Shown: positions 17,501 to 32,500 of the stretch, piece after piece
Numbering within the stretch: the stretch's first letter is position 1
Layout of the letters: each line of letters opens with the position of its first letter
NCBI GenBank assembly: GCA_034401795.1
Contig: CM067359.1
Span: forward strand, 144,404,233 to 144,468,232
Direction of reading: 5' to 3'
Length of the DNA stretch: 64,000 bases
Source: Chaetoderma sp. LZ-2023a
Lineage: Eukaryota > Mollusca > Caudofoveata > Chaetodermatida > Chaetodermatidae
Translations under genes and position numbers: made by a program
The notes under the pieces: model-generated
Databases searched by the model: none
Seen by the model: the letters and a program-made list of their open reading frames with translations, nothing else
Told to the model about the DNA's origin: nothing

Positions 17501-20500
17501 TTTTAAAATAAAATCTAAGATTTTGACCCAACAAATTTATGAATCAAAATTCCAAATGGAAATTCCGGATCCGAGCAGAATAGCATCCTTTGAACAAAAT
17601 TTAGTTAAGATTCAGCTATTGGTTAAGGAGGAGTAGCATTTTAAAGCAAAAGTTGACGGACGACGGATGGACGGACAGTCGCCACGGCATAAGCTCACTT
17701 GGCCTTTCAGGCCAGGTGAGCTAAAGTCTTCTCTTGCCCTGCAAATGGACATAATACAGTCACTAAGCAAAATGTAATTTTTCATGACCGATCGCATTAA
17801 ATAAGATAAGATAAACTGACCACAGATGAATGCTCTGGAGTCATCTACAAGACCGAATGTGCCCAATGTGAGGGGACATTTATAGGCGAAACCAAAAGGC
17901 CTCTCAGGACCAGAGTCAAAGAACATCTTAAAATCAATTCCAACTCAGCTGTGGCAGAACACACAGAATCCACTGGCCATGTCATTCCCGCCAGCAGTGC
18001 CGTGGTCATCAACATCGAGACCAACTTATTTAAACGGAAAGTTCGAGGCGATAGAAATCTACAAGCATCAACCACCCATGAACCGAGACGAGGGCTAGCG
18101 CATACCAGCAGTCTACCAGTCCATGCTGTCACATGACTCCACAAGAACTTACCAGAGTGACGTTGCCAGCATCCAGCGACCGTTAGTTAGTACTGAAAAA
18201 GTGACTGAGATGGTCACGAAAGCTACACTCAAACAATTTCTACATCTCGGAGAGGTAACTAATTTTTCCTTATTATGAATCATCCTGGGATCGGGACGAA
18301 CCTTTTCGGAAATAGGATTTACTGTTTAATTCATCAATCAGTTGGTGTAATCTGTGGTGTTTTAACCTTTAGTGGTCAAGCCAACAAAAAATAGGCTCTA
18401 CAGTGGTCTCGAGAAATGTCTATTACAGGCCAAAAGAAGACTGAAAATGTATCACTGAAATGACTGGCTTGTTTTCATTCCAATGACACATTTTCAAAAA
18501 CAGTCTTCTCTTGGCCCGCAAATGGAAGTACAAATTTTGACTTCTTGACTATGAAATGAATCCCAATAATGTGGTGTAACTCGTGCATTCAGAACATCTG
18601 ATTAAATTTATATTCTGTGCAGTACTACAGTCAATACTCATGACAGTACGGGTTAGTACAAAATCCCAGGCATCTGTGGAATTTCTGGTGTACTGATCGA
18701 TCAAGATAAAAAAAAGTTAATTTCTTGTCCTCACATTACAGTACACATATATATTACACAATATAAAATTTCTTGATATAACCAACCCTTTCCTTATCCT
18801 TCTCTTTATTTTTTCTCTTCTTTCTACGTTTCTTTCCCTCATCCGCTTCTGTATAATCACTATCAGGTTCTGGATCAGCGATCACAACCGGTTCATCATC
18901 GGACACTATAACATCACTGTCAGCTGCTGCAAACTCGGGCTCCTCATGTAGCTCCTCATGTAGCTCCTCAGCCTGCTCCACTGCCTCAAAGGAGGGCGTC
19001 GCCACTTCAGTCTCGTCATATTCCTACATGTAAGAAAACACACACTTTTTTAGCTCTTATAACCACATTATAATACATCTTGTAGCCACGACTAATTTGA
19101 AAAATAAATTTACAGCATTTGTCATTTCATATAGCTGTACCTCTAGACCCTACCTCACCAATATGACAACATATCACGATTCTTGTCATGGTTAAGTTAA
19201 TATGATCCACACCCACAGTGCCTACAGCACTCTACTATTCAATCATACATACATCCACACCACTCACTACTATCCACTCATACATAACTCCACACCACTC
19301 TACTATTCAGCCATACATACCTCCACACTACTCACTACTATTCAGTCATACATACCTCCACACCACTCTACTATTCAGTCATACATACCTCCACACCACT
19401 CACTACTATTCAGTCATACATACCTCCACACCACTCACTACTATTCAGTCATACATACCTCCACACTACTCACCACTATTCAGGGATACATACCTTCACA
19501 CCACTCACTACTATTCAGTTATACATACCTTCACACCACTCTACTATTCAGTCATACATACCTCCACACCACTCACTACTATTCAGTCATACATACCTCC
19601 ACACTACTCACCACTATTCAGGGATACATACCTCCACACCACTCACTACTATTCAGTTATACATACATTCACACCACTCACTACTATTCAGTCATACATA
19701 CATCCACACCACTCACTACTATTCAGTCATACATACCTTCACACCACTCACTACTATTCAGTCATACATACCTCCACACCACTCACTACTATTCAGTCAT
19801 ACATACCTCCACACTACTCACTACTATTCACTCATACATAACTCTACACCACACTACTATTCAGTCATACATACATCCACACCACTCACTACTATTCAGT
19901 CATACATACCTCCACACCACTCACTACTATTCAGTCATACATACCTTCACACTACTCACTACTATTCACTCATACATAACTCTACACCACACTACTATTC
20001 AGTCATACATACATCCACACTACTCACTACTATTCAGTCATACATACATCCACACCACTCTACTATTCAGTCATACATACCTCCACACCACTCACTACTA
20101 TTCAGTCATACATACCTCCACACCACTCACTACTATTCAGTCATACATACATCCACACTACTCACCACTATTCAGTCATACATACCTCCACACTACTCGC
20201 CACTATTCAGGGATACATACCTCCACACCACTCACTACTATTCAGTCATACATACCTCCACACCACTCACTACTATTCAGTCATACATACCTCCACACTA
20301 CTCACTACTATTGAATGAATTACAAAAACTAAAACACTATAATTTTTAGGTGTCCTTAGTTAAACTGGATTTAATCCTTAAAGAAATTTCTTAAAACAAG
20401 CCAGAAAAATAGAAAATAATGACGTCGACGCTGCTCATTGTTAATAAATTAGCACATGATCAAAACGGCACGAGCAAATACGTTTTAGAAAATTTTCACT

Positions 20501-29500: not shown

Positions 29501-32500
29501 AACTTTCTGATAATATTTGTGCAGTTGTTCTGCTTCCAGAATAATTGAAAAGTGAATCTGTTTCCTATTTGGGCTCCAGTGCGCATGCGCAAGCGCGCTT
29601 AGTGACAGGCGTCACTATGGAGTGAGTACAGACTGATGCCAGTCTATATCAGTTAATATACTGGAGATGGACCTAACCAGTAGCCTGGTTGAGGGTCCAT
29701 ATTTATAGGAATAGGCATGGGGAGGAGTGTATGCAAGCATAAAAATCTTATGCTGGTAGCTAAATGCAGATAATTGATTTAGCAACTAGTGATTGAACGG
29801 TAATGGATGTTTTTGTGGTGTAATAACAACTAAGGTTTTCACCCAAAAAATTGATCAATCAAAATTGTGAAAAAACGTCCGAAGGGTAGCAGCTTAGGAT
29901 CCTTCCAGCCAAATTTGGTTGAAATCGGTCAAACCGTTAAGAAGACGCGATTTGACGGACGGACGGATGACCGCCATGGCGTAAGAACACTTGGCCTTTC
30001 AGGCCAGGTGAGCTAATAAATACCTTTCCACCCATCTACTATTCAGTAAGACACACCTCTACACCACTCTCAACCATTCAGTAATACACACCTCTGCACC
30101 ACTCTCTAAATGTTTGCTACTTTTCTTCTTCTTCTTGGATTTCTTCTTTCTCTCGCTGCCATCTTTGTTTTTGCGTTTGCGACCACGCTTCCGTTCTGGC
30201 TCTTCATACTCAGCTCCATCTGCAATATGAACACCAGTACATGCATGAAACAACTGTTCAGGAGATTTAGTCTCTCTTGCTCTGTTTGATAACTGACATT
30301 TTTTACAAGGTTTGTGATTAAACAGGATGAGCCACTAGCCAGCAGGACTATAGTGATGCCTACATTCTACTTGCCATATTGATTAGTGTTGTTCCGATTA
30401 ATCGATGATTGATTGGTTTGCATGTTCAACCAACCGATCGATCATGATTTCAGAAATCAATTTTGCTTGTTTATAAATTGACTTTATTAATATCTTTTAA
30501 CTGGTCAAGCTAGATGAATATTTTTTGGAAAAGAATCTAAATTTAATTGTTACAACTATATAGTATTACTCCTTAGTCTAAGACATTAACTCTTTCAGCA
30601 CTGAAATAGTATGTTAATTTCAAAGCAACCATACCAATAAGGCAGCAAGAACTTCCAGTCAAATTAGTTTCAAAATAACACACACATTTTTACTCAAATT
30701 ATTAAGAATCTGTCATATCCGCGAATCTGTCATATCCGCGACTTGGCTTGAAAGGGGTTATTATCCTTGAATATGCTATAATTACTGCATTCAAAATGGG
30801 TAAAAATGAGAACCTGCTATGATCAATCATTAATTGATCATCGGTTAGTATATAAAACCAATCATCAATCACAAAAAAGTACCAATTCACAACACTAATG
30901 TTGATGAATATTTACTAGCCCTTACTGGAATGACTGGGCAGAAATGGTGATTACTTTTAGCCATTATACTCTAGAATATTGGTATTAACCCTTTAATGGT
31001 CATACCGGTCCCTGCTATAATCTTGTGGAATGTCCATTTACAGGCCAAGAGAACACAATTTAAAAAAATTTACCAAAGGAATGACTGGCTCGGTTATCAA
31101 GACTATTTTGAAAATTTACCATTGAAATGACCGAGATAATCTAGATAAATTATCAAAAATACTTCTTTTGCTCTGCAAATGGACATTTGTCAGACCAGCG
31201 TATGGCGAGATTGTGAAAAGGGTTTTGTGAAGGGGTAGTACACATAAAATGGTGCATTTTCTCGCAATCTAAACATAAAAATCAACAAAATAGATCATAT
31301 CAGTTTGCACAAGAATCTTTCATAATATTCGGTGAATCATGAAAAAAAGTAGGTGATGCTGACCTACTCGTGATTTGCAAAACACGTAGCCTATAATGCA
31401 TCCATGCACCAAGCTTATCTACAAATAACCTCTTGAAACAAGACATTCATATTCAGTGAACAGTGAAAGGTGGAACTTGCCGAGACGTATCCTTACCCTA
31501 GACTGAATCCATACACCAGGTTTGGTCAATACTGTATATTGAAGGAAATTTCAAATTCCCTTTCTCCGAGATCTAACAATACTTACCATTACACTACTCA
31601 TTGATAATACAGCTATCCTGATAGCTGGCTCTAGGAATCTATATTTAGTAAGCTTTACCAGCTCCTGGAACCGGGTATCCAGTTCCCAACAACCGGGTCC
31701 CCGCCTGCCAGAGACACTCATATTGTTAGCATAGCTACCAAACAAGAGAATATCCATGTTATGCCTCCGTGGGGCTGGGAGGGAGGGTCTGTAATGTAAT
31801 GGTAGTGTTAGATCTCTGAGAAAGGGAAATTGAAATTTCCTTCATTCTCTTTCGATCAATACTTACCATTACATTACTCATTGATAACACCAGATTTAGT
31901 CGGTAACCTGGTGGGAAGGGGAAAGCCATACATAGCTTCTTTTGCCCCTTGGAGAAAGAGCTAGACTTAAACTTGCCATACAGAGACCTAAAAGGACCGA
32001 CAAGTTCTGGGACCGAATCACATTCGCATCACCGCTCCCCTGCCCAAACCTCCCCCCCCCCTCAACCTCTTCAAAAAGGGAGAGAGCTCACGAACATGCA
32101 TCTCGCCTGAAACACAAATGTGCAGAGGGTTAACAGCTCTTTACACATATAAGCCTGCGAATGAGCATGAATATATAAGATGAATGATCAAGATATATAA
32201 ACATAATACAAAAATTGTCAAACTTGAATTACCTCATGAATTATGGATTCCAGACGTGGAGTCATCAACCAACACACTTTCGACCAAACGTGTCCCATAC
32301 TGTTGAATTCCTCTTGCTTGACCAGGTCTGTTCTTACTACTTTTGCTTTTCAAAGTTATCAAAAGGAGATGAGCGATGTGGCCACTAGACTATCGTTTCA
32401 AAACAGCTAAAGCGAGTAGATTGGCCAGTCGCAATCTCATGGGTATTCTGAATGCATTTGACCACCCAATGAGAGATAGTATCCATGGATGCGGCGCCAT

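Follow-up and report, generated by a model that had tools for sequence, protein, structure and literature searches.

A 35-bp minisatellite in an intron of a Mi-2/CHD4-type gene of Chaetoderma sp. and its probable origin from an exon/intron border

The 64,000-nucleotide window analysed here (positions 144,404,233 to 144,468,232 of contig CM067359.1, assembly GCA_034401795.1) comes from the mollusc Chaetoderma sp. LZ-2023a and carries, on its minus strand, part of a Mi-2/CHD4-type gene. One intron of this gene contains a minisatellite whose 35-bp unit resembles the border between the intron and the preceding exon. Their alignment gives good support to the view that border and array derive from a single sequence, and the favoured explanation, which we put at a probability of about 0.65, is that a 35-bp segment spanning the border was tandemly amplified into an intronic array. 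The direction, from exon to array, is probable and is favoured by phase and parsimony. Amplification of the border had been proposed in an earlier, sequence-only reading of this DNA; the case for common ancestry of border and array is now strong, with a single locus found, while the direction is unproven.

The exon border and the 35-bp unit

On the gene strand the core consensus of the unit is TAGTGAGTGGTGTGGAG/GTATGTATGACTGAATAG and the exon border is TAGAGAGTGGTGCAGAG/GTGTGTATTACTGAATGG (the slash marks the splice site throughout). They match at 29 of 35 positions, 14 of 17 on the exon side and 15 of 18 on the intron side, with the GT dinucleotides aligned in register, so that the unit contains the donor which the exon is predicted to use. 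The exon-border copy (30074..30108, minus strand) comprises the last 17 nucleotides of the exon and the first 18 of the intron. A second, degenerate unit (30039..30073, minus strand) lies exactly one period into the intron; it matches the core consensus at 29 of 35 positions (14/17 plus 15/18) and the exon unit at 31 of 35. A third unit (about 30018..30038, minus strand) is partial and gapped, being cut by inserted DNA. The array is thus contiguous with the exon for the first two units, and the main array lies about 7.8 kb away across the inserted DNA. Read in the frame of the exon, the unit encodes SGVEVCMTE, compared with SGAE/VCITE at the exon itself.

Ungapped homology runs from 30108 to 30039. 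It starts abruptly 17 nucleotides inside the exon, resemblance ending at once upstream of 30108, and the right edge of the first unit joins the second directly. The sharp left edge and the direct join are as predicted by a duplication of positions -17 to +18. On a weight matrix the exon unit scored 33.1 bits and the second unit 31.4 bits, whereas the best score elsewhere in the window outside the array was -8.7 bits, and 20 second-order Markov randomisations reached at most 1.7 bits. The matrix was built from 44 core units chosen for the pattern GT[AG]TGTAT and an exact 35-bp spacing; the invariance of the donor in their consensus is a consequence of this pattern, and the counts from wraparound alignment, given below, are the unbiased ones.

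The border and unit sequences quoted in the sequence-only reading are present where it placed them. Its counts of 12/15 on the exon side and 16/20 on the intron side hold when recounted by hand, the unit's own register giving the 14/17 and 15/18 above, and the alignment of unit consensus to exon border that it proposed as a check is the 29/35 match. Degenerate units were said to continue directly from the exon (30018-30110). The second unit is indeed contiguous, but ungapped homology starts at 30108 and the third unit is only partial and gapped.

The sequence appears to be confined to this locus. Genome-wide (2.44 Gb, ≤ 3 mismatches of 33), all 57 matches to a core-type pattern and both matches to an exon-type pattern were at this place, and reversed-pattern controls gave none. 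A DNA search of the genome found this place only (29 matches from 2 first-look candidates); repeat counts in these genome searches may be lower bounds. Since all matches were at one locus, no dispersed source of the unit was found, and a dispersed repeat or transposon, considered as such a source, did not appear in either the pattern or the DNA searches.

The gene, the array and its donor-like sites

By its sequence the gene is of Mi-2/CHD4 type because of its CHDNT domain, PHD fingers, helicase motifs and alignment to CHD4 chains. The order on the minus strand of the window is exon 30219-30092, exon 19023-18790, an exon encoding CHDNT (86.5 bits, Pfam cut-off 27), the first PHD finger (recognised by eye) and the second PHD finger (Pfam, 47.2 bits). 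The next 20 kb of genome contain the helicase motifs DEMGLGK and then DEAHRLKNN, collinear and on the same strand (by eye). This order on a single strand, CHDNT with two PHD fingers and then the SNF2 helicase motifs, is that of Mi-2/CHD3-5 genes. Among solved structures, a joined query matched the human CHD4 chains 2n5n_A (1.2e-17) and 6ryr_W (8.6e-17), the alignments covering the CHDNT region and the stretch preceding it only. Paired chromodomains gave no Pfam match in 4745-5014, the single piece tried; the 3.9-4.0 kb segment was left outside the search.

The exon at the border (30092..30219, minus strand) is entered in phase 1 through the acceptor TTGCAG/AT and left in phase 0 through the donor GAG/GTGTGT. 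We infer that it is coding from its open frame, splice signals, phases and collinearity with later Mi-2 exons. The putative authentic donor GT is at 30090..30091 (minus strand). Its phase suits the next exon (18790..19023, minus strand), which has the acceptor CATGTAG/GAATATG, continues in phase 0 as EYDETE and has an uncertain donor end. The predicted exon-exon junction is GGTGCAGAG joined to GAATATGAC. Shortly before the array edge there is just one other GT, AAAA/GTAGCA, which would give phase 1 if used (frame by hand). No spliced retrocopy or second allele was found in this assembly, as the joined exon peptide matched just the two exons (42 candidates scored).

Other tandem repeats occur in the gene. 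A 12-bp repeat in the next exon (2.7 copies, 100% identity, 18939-18970) codes for EELH EELH, so the gene also has a tandem repeat in its coding sequence. (GTA)60 lies within a few tens of bases of another exon end, after the likely donor CAG/GTTTGTAT, and (TAT)10.7 follows the codons of the first PHD finger, likewise near an exon end (triplet arrays at 3667-3846 and 10357-10388).

The core array is in two halves on the minus strand. The distal half (19228..20312) has 31.0 copies with 95.7% identity to the consensus and the half nearer the exon (21052..22204) has 32.7 copies with 96.9% identity. This gives 63.7 core copies by wraparound alignment (the earlier estimate was about 60) of a unit whose length lies within the minisatellite range of 10 to 100 bp. 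The figure of 84 copies from Tandem Repeats Finder is too high because it spans the 0.74-kb insert that divides the halves (20313..21051), of which self-BLAST found no second copy in the window. The foreign DNA between array and exon (22205..30017) consists of a repeat family that recurs at 16.9-17.7 kb and a nested DIRS-like element (self-BLAST). The inverted ends of this element (22569-22845 and 29547-29826) are 96.4% identical over 280 columns, and its Pfam matches are all below cut-off (RVT_1, 28.7 against 29.6; RT_RNaseH, 21 against 24.8; integrase N-terminal, 17.1 against 27). The array had been described as split by a bivalve repeat and a DIRS element. Unrelated DNA does separate the halves from each other and the array from the exon, but the DIRS label, with all scores below the Pfam cut-offs, is weakly tested.

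The unit consensus is stop-free in all plus-strand frames, so that open frames of 372 and 471 codons arise mechanically (19196-22242), and the actual array halves contain zero to two stops per plus-strand frame. These long open frames are due to the composition of the unit. Two further minisatellites are present in the window, at 440-852 (62-bp unit, 6.7 copies, 97%) and 51354-51558 (68-bp unit, three copies, 100%).

Donor-like sites were scored against the 5' end of U1, which was ATACTTACCTG in all eight U1 loci read, among 36 matches reported in the genome. Eight U1 genes stand in tandem at G000:C15:37805657-37817782 with a spacing of 1709 bp, and shorter, lower-scoring U1-like copies occur farther along. 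The exon donor matched U1 at 8 of 11 positions (-8.2 kcal/mol) and the commonest array site at 9 of 11 (-8.8 kcal/mol). With edge units excluded, 47 of 441 GT sites in the array reached 9/11 or better, compared with 2 of 564 in the remaining intron; for duplexes below -8.2 kcal/mol the numbers were 51 of 441 and 8 of 564 (in these energies the pairing register floats and modified bases are ignored). The sequence-only reading had called for U1 pairing to be scored in this way, and its prediction of about 60 AG/GTATGT-like donors proved right in kind, the number being 47 at 9/11 or better. Five other donors of the gene, picked by eye among nine exon ends, matched U1 at 6 to 9 of 11 positions, and the 8/11 of the exon donor is therefore ordinary.

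Use of the exon's own donor is predicted, since no other lies so close to the acceptor of the exon or precedes the in-frame stop at 30061, which any extension of the exon into array donors would meet. PMC9225289 describes exon definition as preferring the nearest donor across the exon when introns are long, and the true donor is therefore expected to win here. Array donors are predicted to be mostly silent, and occasional use would give transcripts with an early stop. Extension as far as the core array would mean keeping nearly 8 kb of inserted DNA, so pseudo-exons would be the likelier route. When acceptor-like sites of the core array are scored heuristically by their pyrimidines, none reaches 10/15 and one reaches 9/15 (20307), with four at 8 or more including 20307, a site that adjoins the 0.74-kb insert and scores the same as the real acceptor 30219. 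Within 300 nucleotides before array donors the only candidate acceptors at 10/15 are 22218 and 20498, both in inserted DNA. The heuristic is rough, since a threshold of 10 misses the real acceptor 30219 and 15204, also entered as an acceptor, proved not to be one. On this basis exons built purely inside the array look unlikely. Any function of the array is probably slight.

Origin of the array

Amplification of the border would have begun with tandem duplication of the last 17 nucleotides of the Mi-2 exon and the first 18 of the intron, presumably through slippage during replication or through unequal exchange. The copies farther from the exon would then have expanded and been homogenised to about 64 near-identical units, while the exon copy, constrained by coding and splicing, and its immediate neighbour may have escaped homogenisation. 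Mobile DNA would later have split the array and moved it off the exon. Retention of the 5' splice site in most units would have left the 47 sites that pair well with U1. Such an origin accounts for the register and edge of the homology, for the presence of a donor in the units and for the phase.

Several observations weigh against this account or against parts of it. Four shared states set the exon unit and its neighbour apart from the core (A at -14, A at -4, G at +3 and T at +9), and the core units with these states number 7, 2, 0 and 0 of 63 (ungapped units with ≤ 9 mismatches from the consensus, those with indels being partly excluded). Since the exon state at +3 or +9 is absent from all of these core units, none was copied directly from the exon in recent times. 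At its distal edge the array has the core state at +3 but the exon-like A at -4 (by hand), which does not settle the direction, and polarity from diagnostic sites in the array is equivocal. Outside the array, the intron site that matches U1 most strongly, ATG/GTAAGTAT at 22592 (-11.0), is within inserted DNA, and strong unused donors therefore need not mean much. Within the array the donor 11-mer shows no special conservation, ranking 13th of 35 cyclic windows, and this ranking gave no signal of selection on the donor columns. Exon 30092-30219 is not covered by any protein homology match among solved structures, so that the exon and its end are predictions, and exon 18790-19023 has no clear donor after its KDKE codons. 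Orthologues were sought in prokaryote and viral collections, where 582 and 600 pattern stretches included none that was confirmed.

The opposite direction is possible but less likely. The edge unit of an intronic minisatellite may have replaced or extended the exon end and given it its donor, in which case LESGAE, the residues at the end of the exon, would be repeat-derived. Homology ending inside the exon is predicted by either direction, most array units match U1 better than the exon donor does (9/11 against 8/11), and the unit can be read in the exon's frame alongside the exon peptide. However, capture of this kind requires a donor to be present in the unit by chance (for a random 35-bp stretch of this DNA, about 0.4% with a threshold of 9/11 and 2.4% with one of 8/11), where duplication of the border would guarantee one at the outset. 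It also requires the loss of an older donor, with no in-phase trace left, and an in-frame fit to the next exon. A coincidental likeness between an unrelated intronic minisatellite and the exon end, brought about by their shared donor consensus, is scarcely credible. That consensus by itself yields some similarity, but with the 11-nucleotide donor omitted 19 of 24 columns still match, whereas the best of 391 control donors (GT sites in the window at 7/11 or better, both strands) reached 13, and the second unit lies exactly one period into the intron. Chance was rejected on these columns together with the weight-matrix scores. It is also quite unlikely that the exon ends elsewhere, with the array merely starting near it at about 30108 and LESGAE untranslated. 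Although no protein homologue covers the end of the exon, the frame is open up to the donor, the phase suits the next exon, and donors farther downstream are beyond the stop at 30061.

A functional role would be compatible with either direction of origin. The array may act as a decoy that holds the U1 small nuclear ribonucleoprotein and tunes Mi-2 splicing or blocks early polyadenylation, and its excess of good U1 matches over the remaining intron is consistent with this, as is a human array in ABCA7 whose length tracks exon skipping and lower expression (PMC5954066). This role is nevertheless unlikely, since selection is not visible on the donor columns, exon definition prefers the donor nearest across the exon (PMC9225289), and retention of one unit in ABCA7 is described there as unchanged with array length (PMC5954066). 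That the array is a U1-binding bank of 5' splice sites from the gene's own exon border, which tunes Mi-2 output and whose length sets extension, skipping and early ends, is very unlikely; if true, the number of copies would act as an inherited setting for a master regulator of chromatin. On the favoured reading, the Mi-2 array seems to be a clean natural example of minisatellite seeding at an exon/intron border: the presumed founder is still in the exon, and a single locus was found in a 2.4 Gb genome.

Comparison with known systems

A close counterpart is the variable number tandem repeat in intron 18 of human ABCA7, for which De Roeck et al. 2018 (PMC5954066) give a 25-bp unit and, in the human reference, a length of 592 bp (23.7 copies). 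There the repeat starts with the GT of exon 18, so that the first array GT is the authentic donor. The donor one unit on is used at times, resulting in a frame shift and premature stop, and this retention does not change with length, whereas array length is associated with exon 19 skipping and lower expression (PMC5954066). The likeness is of a short tandem repeat directly at an exon end with a unit that includes the exon's donor. The Mi-2 array differs in having a 35-bp unit and about 64 core copies, in homology that reaches 17 nucleotides into coding sequence where that of ABCA7 has an intronic start, and in a main array that is split and that inserted DNA holds about 7.8 kb from the exon. 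For ABCA7, polymorphism in length and effects on RNA have been demonstrated, whereas the Mi-2 case is known from the sequence of one assembly.

The human gene IFI6 (6-16, G1P3) has a minisatellite at an exon end. This repeat supplies several splice donors, according to the title of Turri, Cuin and Porter 1995 as cited in PMC4526556, PMC2572611 and PMC3618361, and two downstream repeat units act as donors to give three mRNA species (PMC4526556). The Mi-2 array is similar in that it carries several donors. Those of IFI6 are reported to be used in RNA, in contrast to the Mi-2 array donors, which are predicted and whose use would truncate the protein.

Duplicated segments also bring splice signals along in intron gain. 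PMC4974935 describes gain by tandem duplication of segments that bear AGGT or cross a border, including one potato case across an intron/exon border and fission yeast cases with several duplicates of a 24-bp AGGT segment. In potato and fission yeast an intron is created, whereas the Mi-2 duplication would be inside an existing intron and implies no new one. A literature search gave, among the titles listed, none for a bivalve case of this kind; Mi-2 was not used as a term and most subscription papers were outside its coverage.

The arrangement is therefore already known in kind from human ABCA7 and IFI6, and Mi-2 is a new example. If confirmed by RNA, it would be an invertebrate counterpart to the ABCA7 repeat, and would offer a test of how the spliceosome ignores dozens of donors that match better than the weaker true one in their intron.

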